Shown piece after piece: positions 7,643-18,269 of a stretch of 64,000 bases of DNA. Source of the stretch: Rheinheimera sp. A13L (GTDB lineage Bacteria > Pseudomonadota > Gammaproteobacteria > Enterobacterales > Alteromonadaceae). Where the stretch lies: positions 1-64,000 of the forward strand of contig NZ_AFHI01000067.1 in the NCBI RefSeq assembly GCF_000217935.1. The letters run 5' to 3'. Under the pieces are notes generated by a model, which saw only the letters and a list, made by a program, of their open reading frames with translations, was not told where the DNA came from and did no database searches. The first letter of the stretch is position 1. The number at the start of each line of letters is the position of its first letter. The position numbers and the translations under genes were made by a program.

Positions 7643-7855
7643 CCGAACTGTTAAGGTTTCAGTCAAAGGGCTTTTAGGCTAGAATATCGCTGTTTTTGTA
7701 GTATTCAACCCGCTTGCCATAAGGAACTTTGTCGCCGATGTAGTTGTTAAACCGTTTTTTCTATCTGTAAAAGTAAAAACGCAATTTGGGGCGTGACTGC
7801 TTTTATGCCGGAAAAAAATGCGTTTATTAAGTACTCAAACACAAAGGAATTCCTG

Positions 7856-9340
7856 ATGTTTCAATCCATACGACAGCAATGGCTGTCTAATGTTCGTGGC
7901 GATCTGTTATCTGCCATAGTGGTGGCTCTGGCACTTATTCCAGAAGCTATAGCCTTTTCTATTATTGCCGGTGTAGATCCTAAAGTAGGTTTATACGCTT
8001 CTTTTGCTATTGCTGTGATCACCGCTTTTGCCGGTGGCCGTCCAGCTATGATTTCTGCCGCTACGGGCGCTATGGCGCTGCTGATGATTACTCTGGTAAA
8101 AGAACATGGTTTGCAGTATCTGTTAGCTGCCACTGTGCTTACTGGTGTGTTCCAGATTGTATTTGGCTGGCTGAAACTGGGAGAACTGATGCGTTTTGTT
8201 TCCCGTTCTGTGGTGACTGGTTTTGTCAATGCCTTAGCTATTCTGATCTTTATGGCCCAGTTGCCTGAACTGACTGGTGCTCATGGCACTGTATTGGTAT
8301 ACGGTATGACGGCTTTGGGCCTTGCCATTATTTATCTGTTTCCTTATATCAATAAAACTATCCCTTCGCCTTTGGTCTGTATTGTCGTACTGACTGCATT
8401 AGCGCTGTATTTTGGTCTGGATCTACGCACTGTCGCCGATATGGGCCAACTGCCGGATAGCCTGCCAATTTTCTTATGGCCAGATGTGCCGCTGAATTTT
8501 GAAACTCTGCAGATTATCTTCCCTTATGCTTTGGCTTTAGCTTTAGTAGGTTTATTAGAGTCTTTAATGACAGCCACTATTGTCGATGATTTAACAGACA
8601 CCAGCAGTGATAAAAACCGTGAATGTGTGGGCCAGGGCATCGCCAATATAGGTTCTGGTTTAATTGGCGGTATGGCGGGTTGTGCCATGATTGGTCAGTC
8701 GGTGATCAACGTCAAGTCAGGCGGTCGCACCAGATTATCAACATTGCTTGCCGGTGTTATCTTATTGATCATGGTGGTGTTTTTAGATCAATGGGTTGGT
8801 CTTATCCCTATGGCTGCATTAGTCGCAGTGATGATTATGGTCTCTATTGGTACCTTCAGCTGGTCTTCCGTGACTGACTTAAAGAAAAACCCAAAAAGCT
8901 CCAGCATAGTGATGATAGCCACAGTACTTGTCGTGGTCTTTACTCACAATCTGGCCTATGGCGTTTTTATTGGTGTGCTGCTCAGTGCTTTATTTTTTGC
9001 CAACAAAGTCGGCAAAATTTTGTATATAGGTTCCAGTTTATCAGCCGATGGTCACGAGCGTGATTATCAGGTGGTAGGCCAGGTGTTTTTCAGCTCGGCC
9101 GATCAATTTGTGGGCGCTTTTGATTTTAAAGAAGCCGTTGAAAAAGTTCGGATCGATTTAAGTAAAGCGCATTTTTGGGACATCACAGCCATCAGTTCTT
9201 TGGATAAAGTAGTGATTAAATTCCGTCGTGAAGGCACAGAAGTAGAGCTGATTGGCCTAAATGAAGCCAGCGCAACACTGGTTGATAAGTTTGCTGTGCA
9301 TAACAGACCTGACGCTATTGAAAAGCTCATGGGCCATTAG
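7856..9340 (+). CDS. SulP-family anion transporter with STAS domain
   Basis: A 494-residue inner-membrane transporter. Residues 1-400 hold about a dozen hydrophobic segments with SulP hallmarks ([23 protein letters not shown] near the start, [26 protein letters not shown] in the middle). The C-terminal 90 residues form a STAS domain ([23 protein letters not shown]). Family members carry sulfate, bicarbonate or dicarboxylates, and the substrate cannot be fixed from sequence. The ATG at 7856 is preferred because it follows AAAGGA; upstream in-frame starts give no conserved sequence. Ten bases separate its stop from the following UspA-family gene, so the two are probably co-transcribed. Confidence 0.9.
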
Positions 9341-9350
9341 GAGAGATGAT

Positions 9351-10205
9351 ATGACCAAAAAAGTAATAGCTTGTATTGATACATCCTGTTATGCAGAAGC
9401 TGTATGTGATTATGCTGCCTGGGCTGCCAATAAACTGGCCGTGCCCATGTCGGTTTTGCATGTACTGGATAAAGCCGTAGCTGCAGCTACGTCAGACTTA
9501 AGTGGCAGTATAGGTTTAGGCGCTCAGGAAGCCTTGCTGGAACAACTGGCCAAACTGGATGAAAGCAAGGCCAAACTGGCTTTAGAGCGTGGGCGTTTAT
9601 TGCTTGATGCTGCCAAAAGCCGTGCTGAAGCAGCAGGTGTTGAGTCGGTCGACGAACGTTTGCGGCATGGCGACTTTGTCGATACCTTGCTTGAACTGGA
9701 AGAGCAAACCCGCTTGCTGGTGATAGGCAAAAGAGGCGCTGGCAGTTCTGAAGCTCATGGTCGTATTGGCCTGCATGTCGAACAACTGATCCGCAGTGTA
9801 GAAAAACCTGTGCTTTTAAGTCAGCAGCAATTTGTTGAACCTAAACAAGTGATGCTGGCTTATGATGGCAGCGCCACAGCAGTGAAAGGGCTGGAAATGT
9901 TATCTGCCAGTGCTTTGTGCCGTGGTTTGCCTGTGCATCTGGTGATGGCCGGAGCTGATACTGAAGCCACCCGGGCGCAATTAAGTCAGGCGGCAGCTTT
10001 ATTGGAGCGTGCTGGTTTTACTGTGGTTCAGGCTATAGTGGCAGGGGAAGCGGAAGAGGCTTTACATCAGTACCAGCAAAATCAGCATATTGATTTGATG
10101 GTGATGGGCGCTTATGGCCACTCCCGTATTCGGCAGTTTATTTTGGGCAGCACGACGACGGCTATGCTGAGCAAAGCCCGCTGTTCTTTATTGATATTAC
10201 GCTGA
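9351..10205 (+). CDS. tandem-domain universal stress protein
   Basis: A 284-residue cytoplasmic protein with two UspA domains, roughly 1-155 and 160-284. The second keeps the ATP-binding loop G-x2-G-x9-G-S/T (GAYGHSRIRQFILGSTT). The first has a degenerate version (GKRGAGSSEAHGR). The start ATG 9351 follows AGGAGA by 6 nt. It lies 10 bp after a SulP transporter gene; SulP-Usp pairing suggests the Usp protein modulates the transporter or the response to its substrate, which is an inference. Confidence 0.9.
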   Translation: MTKKVIACIDTSCYAEAVCDYAAWAANKLAVPMSVLHVLDKAVAAATSDLSGSIGLGAQEALLEQLAKLDESKAKLALERGRLLLDAAKSRAEAAGVESVDERLRHGDFVDTLLELEEQTRLLVIGKRGAGSSEAHGRIGLHVEQLIRSVEKPVLLSQQQFVEPKQVMLAYDGSATAVKGLEMLSASALCRGLPVHLVMAGADTEATRAQLSQAAALLERAGFTVVQAIVAGEAEEALHQYQQNQHIDLMVMGAYGHSRIRQFILGSTTTAMLSKARCSLLILR

Positions 10206-10240
10206 AATAAAAAAGGGGTCAGAACTGAAGTTCTGACCCC
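10205..10240 (-). terminator. terminator of the TonB receptor operon
   Basis: Perfect 12-bp stem (GGGGTCAGAACT) with a 2-nt loop at 10215-10240. On the minus strand it is followed by TTTTTTATTT. It ends the minus-strand receptor transcript and also lies just past the plus-strand usp gene. Confidence 0.88.
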
Positions 10241-10257
10241 TGAACAAAAAAACTGAC

Positions 10258-12903
10258 TTAGTATTTGTAGCTGAAGCTTAAACCGTAGCTTTGGCCTTCA
10301 ACACGACGCTGTAATAATTCGCCTTGTTGAGTGATTTCAACATCTTCATCCAACAGGTTTTTCAGCGACAGTTTCACTGAAGTCGATTCAAATGGCGTGT
10401 AAGAATAGACAAAATCCAGTGAGTTAAACGGCTGCTCATAGGCATCATCTTTATCGTTTACACCAGCAAAAGCGATACGCTTACCAAAGACGTTGTACGT
10501 CATGGTGGCGTTGTGCTTGTCGTCGTCAGAATCGAAGCCTAACTGGAAGTTCACTACATGTTTGGAGTGACCACTTAATGGGCGCTTCAAATTGGTCAGG
10601 TTAGTACCGGCAAAAGGCTGAATGGTAATTTCAGACTCGCTGTAGGTGAAGTTACCGGCCACAAAGAAGTTATCCAGCCAGTTATTGCCTTCAAACATAT
10701 TCAGTTGTTGCAGGAATTCAGCTTCCACACCGTACACTTCACCTGTGTCACCGTTACGGAATGACATCAGTAAGTTACCGTCTGAACCACTTAATTCAAT
10801 GGATTCAATTGGCTTATCCAGATCTTTGTAGAACACACCCACACTATAGTTGCTTTCGTCGTAGTACCACTCTAAACGGGCATCGTAGCTGCTGACATCA
10901 GTCGTTTGCAGGCCAGAAAAACCTGTTACTTTAAAATCAGTCACAGGATCAACGAATAGTACTGGTGTTACTTCACGTAAGTCAGGGCGAACTACAGTGC
11001 TGCTGTAACCAAAGCGGGCCTGCAAATCTTCACTGACAAACCAGGTTAAAGACAAGGAAGGGTAAAAACCATCTTCGTTCAGCGGGAAATCTTCGACATT
11101 ACCACTGATTTCGCCATCCCCATTCAGTGGGATAGAGATTTGGCGGAAGTCTTCATAACGTACACCAAAGTTTAAACGCAGCAGGTAGTCATAGTTCATT
11201 TCCATGCCAACATAAGCCGCATCGATCATCTGCGCTGCTATGTAGTCATCTGCCTGAGTGGTGACGTTAGAAATCTGGAAACCATTGGCTGTATTGAGGA
11301 TATTTTCATCAGAAAAAATCTCTGAAAAGCTTTGGCTCAACTGATCCAGGCCATAACCTACTGTATTGAAGTTAAACAAGTTGGTTTCTGATACACGGGT
11401 CCGCTCAAAATAAGAATAACCGCCGTTCAGTGTCATCTCAGCTTTACCTAAAGTAAAGGGCAGTTTGGCATTCCAGCTGGCGTTTTCAGTGTCATCTTCC
11501 ATTTTACCGAAGCTGTAGTTGACAGCATTCTGGTTACGACGCAGGAAAGAGGTAACAGAGCCGTCAGCCTGAGTTTCGTTTAAGTAACGATAATAGAGTT
11601 CACCTGGTGCATCACGTTCTGCTTTAGCGTCCGTGTATTGCCAGTCAAGGCTGATGTCGTATAACCATGGCAGCATGTGACGACCGCGGACCTGGTTACT
11701 GAACATCGAACGCTCTTCGTACACTATCGAAGTGTCGGTGTTAGATCTGTTCGCTTCGTTCACGGTTTCAATACTGTCACCGTTCTTAATTTTGACTTCA
11801 TCTTTGGTATCACGCAGATAAATAGATGCAGTTTCAAAACGGTGGTTTTCATCCAGCTCTAAACCAAAGTTCAGCATACCGGACAATTTCACCTGATGTT
11901 CTGTACCTTTAATATCGTCGTAAATATTTAAAGGTACTAAGTTATCGCCTGAGACAGAAAAATAACGTTCCTGTTCTTCGATATTCTGAGTGGATCTGTC
12001 ATAACTGACACCGGCCATTACACCAAAAACCGATGAACCAAGATCGAATTTATCGCCAAAAGATACACTGCCATCAAAATCGGGTTTTACACTTTCACGT
12101 TGTACATCTACATCACGGTTAAAAGCTAAACCTAATTCACGCACTATGGTGTTAGCCTGGGCCAGATTGCCTGCGTTAATGCCACCCAAAGCTTCTGCAA
12201 TATTAATAGGTGTAATAGTGCCATACTGATCCAAAGCGGTGCGCAGTTCAGGCGACATAGTACGGGTGCCGTCGTCGCTGCCCATCCAGTCATCACCACC
12301 ACCATTGTAGCTATAGCCTTTATCACTGTTCAGGCTGTTATAACCGGTACCAACAGACAGATTAAAACTGCGTTGCAGCGGAATAGATGCAGTGCGTATA
12401 TTGACGTTACCACCACCAAAAGCGGCTGGCAGCTCAGGTGAATAAGCTTTTTGTACCACTAAACTTTCAATAATACCGGCCGGGAACATATCCAATGGGA
12501 TGACGTTCCTTGTTGGATCCGGGCTTGGTACCATAGCGCCGTTTAATAAGGTACTGGAATAACGTTCCCCTAAACCACGCACATAAATAAACTTGTCTTT
12601 AACTAAGGTTAAGCCAGTCACCCGGCGAAGTGCTGTGGCTGCGTTGCTGTCGCCTGCTCTGGAGATTTGCTCCATGCCTAATAATTCTGCGACATAAGGT
12701 TGTTCACGGCGCTCTGCAGCAGCGGAAGCGGCTGAACTCATCAGACGGCCTGATACTTCAATACGTTCAACGGCCTGTTCTTGTTCTGCAGGTTCTGCAG
12801 GAGCTTCCTGGGCTGATACAGGCATCATGCTTGCTGTGGCTGCTAAAGCCAGAAGCACACTACGGCCAACCTGACTGATTTTAAAACTTTGCTTGCTGCT
12901 CAT
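10258..12903 (-). CDS. TonB-dependent receptor of the Pho-controlled lipoprotein operon
   Basis: An 881-residue outer-membrane receptor. It has a signal peptide (ending MMPVSA), an acidic Glu/Ala-rich linker, a TonB-box-like VERIEVSGR, and a plug at about 60-180 containing KFIYVRGLGERYSSTLLNG and FGGGNVNIRT. A large beta-barrel follows and ends SYGLSFSYKY. It is the second gene after a lipoprotein gene on the same strand (116-bp gap with two hairpins, no obvious new promoter). The operon starts at a Pho box, so the receptor is inferred to be made under phosphate limitation and to take up a phosphorus-containing compound. The ligand itself cannot be read from the sequence. A strong terminator follows. 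Confidence 0.92.
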   Translation of the reverse strand: MSSKQSFKISQVGRSVLLALAATASMMPVSAQEAPAEPAEQEQAVERIEVSGRLMSSAASAAAERREQPYVAELLGMEQISRAGDSNAATALRRVTGLTLVKDKFIYVRGLGERYSSTLLNGAMVPSPDPTRNVIPLDMFPAGIIESLVVQKAYSPELPAAFGGGNVNIRTASIPLQRSFNLSVGTGYNSLNSDKGYSYNGGGDDWMGSDDGTRTMSPELRTALDQYGTITPINIAEALGGINAGNLAQANTIVRELGLAFNRDVDVQRESVKPDFDGSVSFGDKFDLGSSVFGVMAGVSYDRSTQNIEEQERYFSVSGDNLVPLNIYDDIKGTEHQVKLSGMLNFGLELDENHRFETASIYLRDTKDEVKIKNGDSIETVNEANRSNTDTSIVYEERSMFSNQVRGRHMLPWLYDISLDWQYTDAKAERDAPGELYYRYLNETQADGSVTSFLRRNQNAVNYSFGKMEDDTENASWNAKLPFTLGKAEMTLNGGYSYFERTRVSETNLFNFNTVGYGLDQLSQSFSEIFSDENILNTANGFQISNVTTQADDYIAAQMIDAAYVGMEMNYDYLLRLNFGVRYEDFRQISIPLNGDGEISGNVEDFPLNEDGFYPSLSLTWFVSEDLQARFGYSSTVVRPDLREVTPVLFVDPVTDFKVTGFSGLQTTDVSSYDARLEWYYDESNYSVGVFYKDLDKPIESIELSGSDGNLLMSFRNGDTGEVYGVEAEFLQQLNMFEGNNWLDNFFVAGNFTYSESEITIQPFAGTNLTNLKRPLSGHSKHVVNFQLGFDSDDDKHNATMTYNVFGKRIAFAGVNDKDDAYEQPFNSLDFVYSYTPFESTSVKLSLKNLLDEDVEITQQGELLQRRVEGQSYGLSFSYKY

Positions 12904-12941
12904 TTGAACTTGGTCCTATCAGCTAATTCTTTCTTACATCA

Positions 12942-13013
12942 AGAGGCCGGGCTTATCCAAAGGAGGCCCGGCTGAAATGAATTTAACCCGCAGTCAGAGA
13001 GTGGCTGCGGGTT
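12942..13013 (-). other. two hairpins between the lipoprotein and receptor genes
   Basis: Two GC-rich inverted repeats fill the 116-bp gap: GCCGGGC/GCCCGGC (12946-12952 with 12966-12972) and AACCCGCAG/CTGCGGGTT (12985-12993 with 13005-13013). Neither is followed by a good T-tract on the minus strand. They look more like processing or stabilising structures, or a weak attenuator, than a full terminator. Confidence 0.5.
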
Positions 13014-13019
13014 CAGGTC

Positions 13020-15707
13020 TTAGTCGTCTAAACCAACTGTCCAGCCAGCAGTCCAGTCGCTGCCTTCTTTCACTGCACCGATAAAGTCGACATCTTCAAA
13101 GAAGCTGTTTACCTGAGACATGGCTTTTGGAGTGGTGGTATTGATAGTGAAGATACCGTTCAGAACTGCAGCCTGATTAGCAGCAACACTGTTGCCTTCC
13201 TGAGCCATAAACCACTGTTCAACTGTAGTGGTAGCAGACACTTCACCTTTAAATGGTTCAGCACAAGCTATTACTGAGTGAGTCAGTTGCAGTTCACCAG
13301 TAGCTGCCAGGTTGCGAGACTCGTCAGATTCAATCTCTAAACATTCACCCATACCATCCGGGCCTGTGATGATAAAGTTATGCAGTTTGGCATTAGTACC
13401 AGCACGTAACAGGATACCTTCTGAGTCGTCATCACCGTCAAAGTTGTTACCGATAATGGTCATATTGGCAACAATTGGGTTGGATACAGGCAGTGCACCG
13501 AAGCTACCTGACTGGTTATCTGCTTCAATACCACGGTTTGCTTTGGCATCATCAGCGGCATGTTTAACTAACACAAACTGCATGTTACCGCGCCAGCCGT
13601 CAGCCCAGTCCAGAGAATCATCACCGTTAGCTGTTAAAACTACGTTTTTACAGCTGACTGAACCACCGAAGAACTCCACACCATCATCGACGTTCTGGTG
13701 AACCTGAATGTTTGAACACTGGGTTTGTGAGCCCACACCAAAAAAGGTGATACCGTTTAATTCATTGTCAGGGATAACTTCAAAACCAGCGTGTTTCACA
13801 ACCACGTAGTTTAATTTGCCGCTGTTATCTTCCCAGTTAGCTCCACCGTACGGGCCTGCTTCACCTTCTGCTTCTATCTGACAGTTAGCTAAGTTTGATT
13901 GATCACACTTGTTGCTAGGTGCGTTACCCAGCAATACCAGACCACCCCACTGACCTGAAGTGGTAGGTGAACCTATCATGTCCTGTACCGACGTCATGAC
14001 GATAGGGTTTGCCGCAGTACCGTTGGCATCAATTTTTGAGCCACGGGTAATCACCAGGAAGTCGGCACCTGATTTACCAAAAATATGCACGCCAGGCTGA
14101 ATAGTTAAAGTAGCATTACTCTTATTGTCGTTACCTATACGGACACGGCCATTTAATACATAGTCAGCACCGGCTGCTAAAGTCACGTTAGTCAGGATGT
14201 CGCCTGTTAACTGGCAGTTTAAACGACCTGTTAAGCTGGCAACTTCAGTAGTACCTGTTGGGCAAGAGGTTAAATTCACGCCATCATTTTGGTGTAAAGA
14301 CACAGTCCAGCCTTTGGTCCAGTCGTTAGTACCATCAAAAGCACCAATGTAGTTCACCACGTCAAACCAACCGTCTACATTATTCGATACGTTGTAACCA
14401 TTGCCTAAAGCCGGAGAGTTAGGTGCAGGCATGTAGCCACCCAGCAAGGCGTCGCCCACTAAGTTGTTTGGCTGAGCTTCAAACCAGGTTCTGGCGTTAA
14501 AAGTCACGTTGCCTGCATCGTCTTCAATGTCTTTAAAAGGTTCAGCACAATCAATAATGGAGTTACGGAAAACTAAATCACCGCTGTTGGCAAAGTTGGC
14601 TGTTTCTGTGCTGTTAATTTCAAAACACTCACCCATACCTTGAGGGCCAGTCACGATAAAGTTATAAAGTTCAGCAGAAGTACCGGCACGTAATAAAATG
14701 CCTTCTGAATCTTCATCACCATCAAAGTTGTTACCGATAATGGTAACGTTAGACACTCGTGGTCTGCTAATCGGAGTTGCGGTGAAGTTGCCTGATTGGT
14801 TATCTGCTTCGATACCACGGTTAGCTTTAGTATTGTTTGGATTGTGACGGATTAAGATATGCTGTGCACGACCAGTCCAGCCATCTGCCCAGTCTAAAGA
14901 GTCATCACGGTTACCTGTTAACACTACATATTTAACATCTACAGTACCACCGAAAAATTCTACGCCGTCATCCACGTTGTTGTGGACCTGAATGTACTCA
15001 ACACTAGTGCCACGGCCTACACCGAAAAAAGTAATACCATTTAATTCGTTGTCCGGAATAACTTCAAAACCAGCGTAACGTACTTGCAAATACTTTAATG
15101 CACCGCTGTTATCTTCAGGGTCAGCACCGCCGTATGGGCCTGCTTCACCTTCAGCTTCTACCTGACAAGTTGCCAAAGCAGCCTGGTCACATTTGTTGCT
15201 TGGTGCTTTACCTAACAAAACCAAACCACCCCATTCACCGGTCGATTCGTCGTCAGATAAACCTAACATGTCGTTTACTGACGTCATGATGATTGGGTTA
15301 GTCGCAGTACCAACAGCCTGAATTTTAGAACCTCGGGCGATTACTAAGTAGTCGGCACCACTTTTACCAAAAACTTTAGTGCCAGGCTGAATAGTTAAAG
15401 TAGCGCTGTTAGCGTTGTCGTTACCAATTGTTACTTTGCCGGATAAAGCCCAGGCTCTATCTGCAGTCAAAGTGATATCACTGGTAATAGTGCCCGTAAT
15501 TTCACAGACTGGAGTCGTAACGCCAGCTAAAGCTGAACCTTGAGTTGCAAAAGAAGGACAAGAACTGGTTGGTGGTGGAGGAGTACCGCCGCCGTTGTTG
15601 CCGTCGTTACCATTGCCAGTGTTGATATTGATATCACCGCCACCGCAACCAGCTAATACTAAAGCTGAGGCGATTGCACTCAATTTTAAGAATTTACGTA
15701 AAGCCAT
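13020..15707 (-). CDS. duplicated beta-helix-like surface lipoprotein, Pho-regulated
   Basis: An 895-residue lipoprotein. The signal peptide ends in lipobox VLAGC with Cys21, followed by a Gly/Asn-rich and Pro-rich linker (residues 22-48). Two homologous halves follow, about residues 50-481 and 482-895. Each opens with a CP segment and repeats the same landmarks in order: TLTIQPG, FGKSGAD, SKCDQ-like SNKCDQ, VEAEGEAGPYGGA, FEVIPDNELNGITFFGVG, DDGVEFFGG, DDSLDWADGW, ANRGIEADNQSG, NFDGD-DSEGILLRAG, and finally an IGA..DWT.GWTV motif. The repetitive short strands rich in Asp/Asn/Gly suggest a right-handed parallel beta-helix that may bind calcium or a polyanion. GGAGA precedes the ATG. It is the first gene of an operon with a TonB receptor and follows a Pho box; function unknown. 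Confidence 0.85.
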   Translation of the reverse strand: MALRKFLKLSAIASALVLAGCGGGDININTGNGNDGNNGGGTPPPPTSSCPSFATQGSALAGVTTPVCEITGTITSDITLTADRAWALSGKVTIGNDNANSATLTIQPGTKVFGKSGADYLVIARGSKIQAVGTATNPIIMTSVNDMLGLSDDESTGEWGGLVLLGKAPSNKCDQAALATCQVEAEGEAGPYGGADPEDNSGALKYLQVRYAGFEVIPDNELNGITFFGVGRGTSVEYIQVHNNVDDGVEFFGGTVDVKYVVLTGNRDDSLDWADGWTGRAQHILIRHNPNNTKANRGIEADNQSGNFTATPISRPRVSNVTIIGNNFDGDEDSEGILLRAGTSAELYNFIVTGPQGMGECFEINSTETANFANSGDLVFRNSIIDCAEPFKDIEDDAGNVTFNARTWFEAQPNNLVGDALLGGYMPAPNSPALGNGYNVSNNVDGWFDVVNYIGAFDGTNDWTKGWTVSLHQNDGVNLTSCPTGTTEVASLTGRLNCQLTGDILTNVTLAAGADYVLNGRVRIGNDNKSNATLTIQPGVHIFGKSGADFLVITRGSKIDANGTAANPIVMTSVQDMIGSPTTSGQWGGLVLLGNAPSNKCDQSNLANCQIEAEGEAGPYGGANWEDNSGKLNYVVVKHAGFEVIPDNELNGITFFGVGSQTQCSNIQVHQNVDDGVEFFGGSVSCKNVVLTANGDDSLDWADGWRGNMQFVLVKHAADDAKANRGIEADNQSGSFGALPVSNPIVANMTIIGNNFDGDDDSEGILLRAGTNAKLHNFIITGPDGMGECLEIESDESRNLAATGELQLTHSVIACAEPFKGEVSATTTVEQWFMAQEGNSVAANQAAVLNGIFTINTTTPKAMSQVNSFFEDVDFIGAVKEGSDWTAGWTVGLDD

Positions 15708-15764
15708 TACTCAATCTCCAATAAGTACGAACAGGAAAGCTGTTGTTATAAAAAGCTGGGGCCA

Positions 15765-15798
15765 ACCATACTCAGGCTTAATGACTGTTTTATTACAG
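15765..15798 (-). promoter_or_regulatory. PhoB-activated promoter of the lipoprotein-TonB receptor operon
   Basis: On the minus strand: Pho box CTGTAATAAAACAGTCAT (15781-15798), differing from consensus mainly at positions 5 and 13. It is followed by exactly 10 bp and TATGGT (15765-15770) as -10. The -10 lies about 58 bp from the ATG. Confidence 0.78.
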
Positions 15799-16028: not shown

Positions 16029-16062
16029 CTTTCATAAAAGTGTCATAAACTAACGCCATACT
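16029..16062 (+). promoter_or_regulatory. autoregulated Pho promoter of phoB
   Basis: Pho box CTTTCATAAAAGTGTCAT (16029-16046), 10 bp, then -10 CATACT (16057-16062). The arrangement and bases closely follow the E. coli phoB promoter, whose -10 is CATAAT. The start codon lies about 40 bp downstream of the -10. Confidence 0.87.
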
Positions 16063-16101: not shown

Positions 16102-16788
16102 ATGTCTAGAAAAATCCTGGTTGTAGAAGATGAAGCACCGATCCGTGACATGTTGTGTTTTGTGCTTGAACAAAATGGCTATCAGGCCAGCACAGCGGAA
16201 GACTTTGATTCAGCTGTGAACATGTTAGTAGAACCTTATCCGGATTTAGTATTGCTGGACTGGATGTTGCCTGGTGGCAGCGGTATTCAGTTTGCAAAAA
16301 AAATGAAAGGACACGAACTGACCCGCACTATTCCTATCATTATGATCACAGCTCGCGGTGAAGAAGAGGATAAGGTTCGTGGTCTGGAAGTGGGCGCTGA
16401 TGACTATGTCACTAAGCCATTTTCACCAAAAGAGCTGATGGCTCGCATTAAAGCGGTGATCCGTCGTGTTGCGCCAACCAGTCTGGATGATGTGATTGAA
16501 GTGCAAGGCTTAAAGCTGGATCCTGTATCACACCGCGTCACTGCGGCTGAGCAAGCTGTAGATATGGGGCCTACCGAATTCCGTTTATTACACTTTTTTA
16601 TGACCCATCCTGAGCGGGTTTACAGCCGTGAACAGTTGCTGGATCATGTATGGGGTACTAATGTGTATGTCGAAGACAGAACAGTAGATGTGCATATACG
16701 CCGTTTACGTAAAGCCATTTCGCTGGCTGGGCATGACCGTTTAGTGCAAACTGTACGGGGTTCGGGTTATCGTTTCTCTGCCAAGTAA
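16102..16788 (+). CDS. phoB: phosphate regulon response regulator PhoB
   Basis: A 228-residue OmpR-type response regulator. The receiver domain (1-120) has the acidic pocket Glu9/Asp10, phosphoacceptor Asp53 ([13 protein letters not shown]) and the conserved Lys in [13 protein letters not shown]. The C-terminal winged helix (about 130-228) ends with [17 protein letters not shown] and [12 protein letters not shown]. The RRVAP and LDPVSHRV linker segments are typical of PhoB. It would bind the Pho boxes listed in this window, including its own. The gene is followed by an ERIC-like element and then phoR. Confidence 0.96.
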
Positions 16789-16812
16789 ACGAGATCCAGT
16801 TTTTATCGCTAT

Positions 16813-16938
16813 TTACCCTAAGTAATTGGAGTTGCAGCTAGGCGGCAACTGAAAGAGACCCCATGAACATAGTTGTCCTATGTGATTGGGGCGAAAGAGG
16901 GCAGCCAACAACGCTGCGGCTTCAAGTACGACGGGTAA
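16813..16938 (+). repeat. ERIC-like element, copy 1 (between phoB and phoR)
   Basis: About 124-126 bp with terminal inverted repeats TTACCC/GGGTAA and the ERIC landmarks in order: GTAATTGGAGTTGCAG, GGCGGCAA, a central CCCCATGAACATAG and CTATGTGATTGGGGCGA palindrome, GGCAGCCAAC, then GCTTCAAGTACGACGGG. It fills most of the 162-bp gap in the phoB-phoR operon and ends 13 bp before the phoR ATG, so it is probably transcribed. Confidence 0.88.
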
Positions 16939-16950
16939 TAAGTAGGTGTT

Positions 16951-18269
16951 ATGCGTTTGTTACTATCTAAAAGGAAGATTTTAAGTAGAATCTTCCTTTT
17001 ATTTTTTATTGTTGCATTAGTTGGCTGGCTGTTTGACCTGCTGTTTCCTGCTTTATTTGCCGCCTCAGTGGTACTGCTTGGCTGGAATTACCGGCATATT
17101 TTTGTATTGGATAAATGGCTATGGCGCGATAAAAAACTAACGCCACCAGCAGGTGATGGCAGCTGGCAGCAGGTTTTTGATGGCATTTATTATCGTCAGC
17201 GCAAAGCCCGCAAAAAAATAAAGAATTACGTGCTCTGATCCGGCGTTTTCGTGACGGCGCTGAAGCCTTACCTGATGCTATAGTGGTGCTCAACAGTGAC
17301 TGGACCATTATCTGGTGTAATAAACTGGCGCAGCAACTGGTTGGTTTACGCTGGCCGCAGGATGAACGTCAGCGTATTGATAACCTGATCCGTAATCCGG
17401 AATTTCAGACTTATATTCAGCAAAAACAATTTGAGCAGCCACTGGAGTTGTCTTCTCCGGTTAATGAAGATTTGGTACTGGAATACCGTATGCTGCAATA
17501 CGGCGACGATCAGCACTTACTGATAGTGCGGGATGTCACCCAACTGAAACTGCTGGAGCAGGTACGTAAAGACTTTGTGGCCAATGTCTCGCATGAATTA
17601 CGCACCCCGCTCACCGTATTGCAGGGTTATCTGGAAGTGATGGATGCGGATAATTTACCCAACGCCGCTATTTGGCTGAAGGCGCATACTGTGATGCTGG
17701 AGCAAACCAAACGTATGGACGCTCTGGTACAGCAATTGCTGACCTTGTCACGTATTGAAGCCGCAGCCAAAGTGCAGTTTGAAGATCATATTGATGTGCC
17801 TGCTATGCTGGCGATGCTGGAGCAGGAGTCAAACACCCTAAATCGTGAAAAGCAGCATCAGATCAGTTTTTCAATTGAACCTGGTTTGTTGGTCTCCGGC
17901 ATTCGTGAAGAGTTACGTAGTGCTTTTTCTAACCTGATCACCAATGCGATTAAATACACCCCTAATGGTGGAGAGATCCAGGTCAGTTGGGTTAGGCAGC
18001 ATCAAAAAGCTGTGTTTAGTGTCAGTGACAATGGGGAAGGTATAGCACCTCAACATGTGAAACGACTGACCGAACGTTTTTACCGGGTTGATCAGGCCAG
18101 AGCACGTGCTACGGGCGGCACAGGTTTAGGTTTAGCTATAGTGAAACATGTGTTGCAACGCCATAACAGTAAGCTGATGATTTTCAGTGAGCCGAAAAAA
18201 GGCAGCAGCTTCTCGTTCAGTTTACCTGCTGAAAACCTGCCAAAACGTAAATCTATTAAAGCTCGTTAG
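16951..18269 (+). pseudogene. phoR: phosphate sensor kinase phoR, interrupted by a frameshift
   Basis: Two adjacent reading frames together give a full PhoR (about 438 residues). The first (16951-17238) holds two N-terminal membrane helices and the WQQVFDGIYYRQRKARKK linker, then runs into TGA. The second frame is -1 relative to it and continues without a gap as KELRALIRRFRDGAEALPDAIVV, a PAS domain, the HisKA box NVSHELRTPLTVLQGYL (His codon at 17592) and an HATPase with NLITNAIKYTPNGG and TGGTGLGLAIVKH. The switch lies at a run of seven A residues (17212-17218). Adding one A would restore the gene. It may be a real mutation, an assembly indel, or slippage that still yields PhoR. All catalytic motifs are intact, so a sequencing artefact is a serious possibility. 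The last 14 bp overlap the convergent LysR gene. Confidence 0.85.

Follow-up and report, generated by a model that had tools for sequence, protein, structure and literature searches.

A Pho-box-preceded lipoprotein and TonB-dependent receptor pair of Rheinheimera, a domain-duplicated homolog of ElpS/Cc0171 with a possible role in phosphorus capture

Introduction

To our knowledge, the passage of large or complexed phosphorus compounds across the outer membrane is poorly understood. Two genes next to phoB in Rheinheimera sp. A13L, encoding a large lipoprotein and a TonB-dependent receptor, raise the question of what kind of system they form and whether it could serve such a passage. A sequence-only reading of the window (the whole stretch of 64,000 nucleotides analysed here, positions 1 to 64,000 of contig NZ_AFHI01000067.1) had put the two genes forward as an undescribed phosphorus acquisition system under Pho control. 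It had also proposed a survey of the pair and its Pho box in other genomes and a structure prediction of the lipoprotein.

Gene arrangement

The pair and its surroundings comprise the following features:

13020..15707, minus strand: gene of an ElpS-family surface lipoprotein (895 aa) with two tandem beta-helix domains
10258..12903, minus strand: gene of a TonB-dependent receptor (881 aa) from a clade adjoining ElpS-like lipoproteins
16102..16788, plus strand: phoB, the divergent neighbour
10214..10241, minus strand: intrinsic terminator after the receptor gene (fold −21.8 kcal/mol, z −6.4)

On the minus strand, the lipoprotein gene comes first and is followed by the receptor gene. Both open reading frames had the lengths given by the sequence-only reading, and the duplication it had noted in the lipoprotein was evident in a self-alignment, in which the two halves shared 59% identity (E 6e-175; each copy approximately 420 residues). 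The strong terminator after the receptor gene and the back-to-back position of phoB were likewise borne out.

Past the terminator, on the opposite strand, the window carries genes of the Usp and sulfate-permease families. They occupy positions 7793-10205: one is a sulfate-permease-family gene that includes a STAS domain, the other belongs to the universal-stress family, and their frames overlap. On the other side, phoR (16789-17290) showed an apparent frameshift near a run of seven A (approximately 17212-17218), with the membrane part in one frame and the remainder (ORF 17283-18269) in another. phoR was uninterrupted in the three relatives compared, and the break in the window is either a sequencing error or a real loss.

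Homology to ElpS and Cc0171

ElpS and its neighbouring receptor Cc0171 were described in 2010 for Caulobacter crescentus (PMC2996285). According to the part of that report available to us, cc0170 (elpS) and the TonB receptor gene cc0171 precede type II secretion genes, homologs are found in Shewanella and Bacteroides, those of elpS and cc0171 co-occur, and ElpS is induced by phosphate starvation, anchored on the surface and shed (PMC2996285).

Among the genomes compared, locus L276 encodes a protein of 518 residues (L276:2536-4089, GTG start, at 190 kb of its contig) with the published marks of ElpS, namely LAGC at residues 17-20 and Asn38. Its gene is followed by a receptor gene and then by gspD, E and F (type II secretion D, E and F). 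From these marks and the adjoining type II genes we infer that the protein is cc0170 and the genome that of C. crescentus or a near relative. Against this protein, each half of the window lipoprotein showed 34% identity (E 1e-65 for one, 8e-57 for the other). The L276 receptor, which was not among the 42 paired receptors of the tree described below, aligned with the window receptor at 31% identity (E 1e-85). Because of the marks, the neighbours and the alignments, the window pair is, by sequence, a homolog of ElpS/Cc0171 with a doubled lipoprotein. Homology to ElpS, which the sequence-only reading had left unclaimed, was thus found, and its description of the system as new had to be given up, the available part of the 2010 report having already noted the co-occurrence (PMC2996285).

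Four GANTC sites lie upstream of the ElpS-like gene, in its promoter region (L276:2236-2535), in line with a methylation effect at elpS reported in the part of PMC5172544 available to us.

The two systems share a homologous lipoprotein and receptor, a lipoprotein gene in first position, a link to phosphate starvation (for the window pair predicted from its Pho box and −10-like hexamer), and a lipobox with a low-complexity linker after the cysteine. The presumed ElpS copy in L276 has approximately the length of one repeat domain (518 aa) and stands ahead of type II secretion genes, whereas the window form has two domains, lies beside phoB and has stem-loops between its genes. In the order around Henriciella, the window lipoprotein was matched in 115 of 150 genomes. 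The receptor was next in all 17 single-domain Caulobacterales loci, which had been hand-chosen from a longer match list, and a GspE-like motif followed further on in 12 of them. Pfam models identified type II secretion C, D, E, F, H and J in L153 and D, E, F and G in L146, and NCBIfam models identified D, E and F in both. No type II secretion genes were found past the pair in the window, where the Usp- and sulfate-permease-family genes stand instead. Since the downstream genes of L053, L065, L067 and L099 are also other than type II secretion genes, this adjacency appears to be a feature of the lineage and not a defining one.

Co-occurrence of lipoprotein and receptor

A scan of genome records with the lipoprotein yielded 79 loci, spanning Rheinheimera, Alishewanella, Arsukibacterium, Idiomarinaceae, SAR86, Halieaceae, Hyphomonadaceae and their kin, and one Poribacteria record. 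A receptor match adjoined the lipoprotein in 78 of these 79 loci (those within one genus not being independent); the sole unpaired one, L093, had no receptor in its contig of 5.4 kb. phoB (at least 90% identity) was the divergent neighbour only in the group of Rheinheimera, Alishewanella and Arsukibacterium. The receptor gene came first in five of the 79 loci (L095-L098 and L109, of the Halieaceae type and Poribacteria), and the Poribacteria locus had a TonB-family gene nearby as well.

Within the window's family, the lipoprotein was matched in 121 of 147 drawn genomes. All 20 regions that were hand-chosen from a longer list of family matches carried the pair, ten of them with a shorter lipoprotein (529-541 aa); the family also includes members with open frames of more than 1,300 aa. 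A draw of 299 Pseudomonadota genomes, which overlapped the earlier sets in the window genome and other genomes of its family, contained the lipoprotein in 31. A locus was taken from 30 of these 31, and the receptor was next door in 28 of the 30, the two others being L233, at a contig end, and L252, without a receptor. The draw receptors had bit scores against the paired receptors at least twice those against the other receptors of the window genome; in L234, L235, L236 and L239 the receptor matched a member of the query set at 100% identity. In a quick tree with 13 further receptors from the window's genome as contrast, and with long branches flagged, the 42 paired receptors were placed on one side of a branch with an SH-aLRT support of 100. 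Judged by gene neighbourhood in the genomes covered, the pairing of lipoprotein and receptor is nearly obligate.

In two SAR86 loci (L073:4708-17367 and L081:3002-18614), the pair lay beside a phytase gene with a second TonB receptor gene, and beside PPK2 and Ppx-family genes. L073 alone had a PHO4 phosphate transporter, and L081 had phoB/phoR-like genes. The SAR86 locus L076 carried type II secretion genes instead of the phytase set. In C. crescentus, the PhoB regulon includes the type II genes along with several TonB receptors, according to the available part of a further report (PMC11208175). The SAR86 neighbours, this regulon and the Pho boxes described below together support a role linked to phosphorus.

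Pho boxes

The region between the lipoprotein gene and phoB contains the following promoter elements:

15781..15798, minus strand: Pho box CTGTAATAAAACAGTCAT of the lipoprotein gene
15765..15770, minus strand: −10-like hexamer TATGGT, beginning 10 nt past the Pho box
16029..16046, plus strand: Pho box of phoB, CTTTCATAAAAGTGTCAT

Boxes were scored with a weight matrix made from five E. coli boxes, with the strand and the distance before the lipoprotein start fixed. The lipoprotein box, 91 nt ahead of the start, scored 19.4 (p ~0.0008, approximately 0.08% of random 108-bp single-strand segments from relatives' loci reaching this score). With TATGGT 10 nt downstream, the Pho-type promoter that had been proposed at 15765-15798 was confirmed as a sequence feature, and a PhoB-type box at promoter distance, our test of Pho regulon membership, was present. 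A spacing of 10 nt between box and hexamer is usual for PhoB-activated promoters. A −10-like hexamer with at least four of six matches stood at the same offset in 11 of the 32 upstream regions that were matched by the box regular expression, the window included, and by eye TAGGGT or a similar hexamer stood there in many other regions.

Across the survey, a box at p<0.05 was found before 62 of 76 lipoprotein starts and none before the remaining 14; L089, L092 and L106 were dropped from the 79 loci, having no start in reach. The boxes were present in 30/30 loci of the group with phoB as neighbour, 17/19 of Idiomarinaceae and Marinifaba, 5/8 of SAR86, 7/10 of Alphaproteobacteria and 3/9 of the others. 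In the receptor-first Halieaceae and Poribacteria loci, no box reached p<0.05 ahead of the lipoprotein. All 20 chosen regions of the window's family had a box at p<0.05, in a scanned stretch 12 nt longer than that of the null. The possibility that the phosphate link is an accident of proximity to phoB was rejected, since, of the 18 Idiomarinaceae and Marinifaba loci whose examined flanks gave no phoB match, 16 kept the box; this count omits L054 (phoB-phoR upstream), and some of the 18 had a weak histidine-kinase match.

Two other search schemes were discarded. A plain IUPAC search with three mismatches returned 133 matches where 98 were expected and lacked discriminating power, and the weight matrix was used instead; an unrestricted scan of 350 nt mainly found the box of phoB itself.

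Intergenic region

The gap between the two genes measures 116 nt and folded, as RNA, into two stem-loops in the window (z −2.4):

12985..13013, minus strand: stem-loop just past the lipoprotein stop (RNA fold), terminator-like in 30/47 loci
12946..12972, minus strand: second intergenic stem-loop (RNA fold), single copy in the window

Among the 47 loci with a gap of at least 60 nt, the window included, 37 had a perfect stem of at least eight pairs between the genes. The terminator-like hairpin seen in 30 of the 47 loci compares with 0.3% of base-shuffled copies. A strict scan for perfect stems scored no hairpin in the window itself, because of a break in the first stem and a weak T-run. Of the proposed two-gene unit, the genes, promoter and terminator were therefore retained, and a simple joint transcript is not assured because of the stem-loops between the genes. 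The stem-loops are likely to cause unequal expression, with more lipoprotein than receptor. Separate control of the two genes is also suggested by Caulobacter, since elpS is reported to be induced and cc0171 to be constitutive; in the available part of the report, deletion of cc0171 did not stop ElpS production (data not shown there) (PMC2996285).

Repeat domains and predicted structure

The lipoprotein gene encodes the following parts:

15645..15707, minus strand: signal peptide and lipobox ending in Cys21
14298..15569, minus strand: repeat domain 1 (approximately residues 47-470)
13029..14261, minus strand: repeat domain 2 (approximately residues 483-893)

Cys21 of the lipobox did not vary across a 38-row alignment. 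The lipoprotein matched no Pfam or NCBIfam family above the cut-off; against the PDB, the best sequence match had an E value of 0.59 and a profile search gave none. Two repeat domains were counted in 62 of 93 lipoproteins, one in 28 (17 of which had been chosen for being single-domain) and three in 3. The count required at least 70% coverage of the domain model, by which L074 (1277 aa) was scored as two. Three domains were present in L070, L071 and L072. One-domain forms occur in the Pseudidiomarina loci and in a single Rheinheimera (L066), so repeat copies seem to have been gained and lost.

Eight residues were invariant in 161 repeat domains (D246, D247, E250, D268, D272, E300, N320 and N349). 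D246-E250 and D268-D272 are spaced 22 residues apart, each after neighbouring predicted strands. Such a ladder of acidic residues, placed through sequence spacing and predicted strands and not through model coordinates, would suit a metal site.

AlphaFold2 modelled the lipoprotein as a beta-helix (mean pLDDT 87, pTM 0.55), in agreement with the earlier view of the protein as beta-helix-like and not SusD-like. The domains are well modelled, to go by these scores, and their mutual placement is unsure. The top Foldseek matches were PL6 alginate lyases and a glucanase (beta-1,3-glucanase), with tailspikes lower, all of which we take to be known beta-helix proteins. Among the 50 matches listed, TM-scores to beta-helix proteins were 0.08-0.20 by query length and identities were 6-12%. 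Because the TM-scores are low, the predicted fold names no ligand. The receptor had Pfam plug and beta-barrel domains. Its model (pLDDT 83.5) matched many haem, siderophore and metal receptors, TbpA among them, and such structural matches give no pointer to the ligand.

Proposed function

We hypothesize, with a probability of roughly 0.6, that the pair consists of a PhoB-induced beta-helix capture lipoprotein and its dedicated receptor, in a gammaproteobacterial, domain-duplicated form of ElpS/Cc0171. Under phosphate starvation, PhoB would act on the box at 15781-15798 and switch on the lipoprotein gene, and less of the receptor would be produced, either through transcription that continues beyond the intergenic stem-loops or from a different start. 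The lipoprotein would be exported and anchored on the cell surface. There, its two beta-helix domains, in each of which adjacent coils carry invariant acidic and amide residues, would bind a phosphorus-bearing ligand, probably via a divalent metal. The ligand would then be handed to the dedicated receptor for import powered by TonB. No report of transport or binding by any family member was found in the literature, and a limited literature search recognised no functional work on gammaproteobacterial members. Against the proposal stand the 14 of 76 lipoprotein starts without a box at p<0.05 and, in C. crescentus, the reported constitutive expression of the receptor, the continued production of ElpS after receptor deletion, and an intracellular phosphate level that did not change on transfer to poor medium (data not shown there) (PMC2996285). 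The shedding of ElpS also counts against capture in that it fits a secreted role equally well.

Such a secreted role could be that of a helper of secreted phosphatases, in which the lipoprotein is shed by a type II-secreted protease and acts as a stabiliser or activator of an extracellular phosphatase, the receptor acting separately, for example in product import. ElpS, itself without phosphatase activity, raised alkaline phosphatase activity in the supernatant when overexpressed, but its deletion left the activity unchanged, as stated in the available part of the report (PMC2996285). The type II secretion genes past the pair, present in Caulobacterales loci as well as SAR86 L076, would agree with a helper; in the window genome, however, the only GspD over the cut-off sits on another contig. 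Nor does a phosphatase helper predict near-obligate pairing with one receptor clade, which a system that captures and imports a phosphorus-bearing ligand plausibly explains better, and we regard the helper role as unlikely.

The lipoprotein might instead be a lyase- or hydrolase-like beta-helix enzyme cutting a phosphorylated or phosphate-rich glycan, with the receptor importing the pieces. Its best structural matches, the PL6 lyases and the beta-1,3-glucanase, and the constant residues on neighbouring coils would fit an enzyme. However, no enzyme family was found over the Pfam and NCBIfam cut-offs, the matches combine low TM-scores with the low identities given above, and tailspikes and adhesins often have this fold as well, making an enzyme distinctly unlikely. 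A pair that serves a metal or siderophore, with phosphate as a signal only, would fit the haem, siderophore and metal receptors among the best structural matches of the receptor, as expected of solved receptors generally. In our judgement this is very unlikely, since phytase, polyphosphate and phosphate-transport genes adjoin the pair in L073 and L081.

Comparison with other systems

The capture reading can be extended, as a tentative view at somewhat less than even odds, to a class of TonB-linked phosphorus importers apart from SusCD. In this class, a beta-helix lipoprotein on the cell surface, built from one to three repeats, would grip a phosphorylated polymer or metal-phosphate complex through metal ions on the constant acidic residues and pass it to a co-evolving receptor, and ElpS would be the first, misread member. 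The co-travelling lipoprotein family and receptor clade, mostly behind Pho boxes and including SAR86 marine bacteria, offer a concrete candidate pair for such passage, and the ElpS puzzle of 2010 (no enzyme activity, no effect of deletion on phosphatase) would become a question of transport.

Pairs of the SusC/SusD type likewise combine a lipoprotein gene with a dedicated TonB receptor gene. In contrast to SusD, the window lipoprotein is a predicted beta-helix, and no SusD family was matched when Pfam and NCBIfam were scanned with E values as high as 0.1 admitted. The window receptor had no carboxypeptidase-like N-terminal domain in the Pfam scan. PL6 alginate lyases share the parallel beta-helix and were the top Foldseek matches of the lipoprotein, but at 9-10% identity, with low TM-scores and no match to a sequence family. 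TbpB differs from the window lipoprotein in having another fold and in being under iron control. The TbpA/TbpB system is similar in that a surface lipoprotein works with a TonB receptor, and TbpA was among the Foldseek matches of the window receptor.
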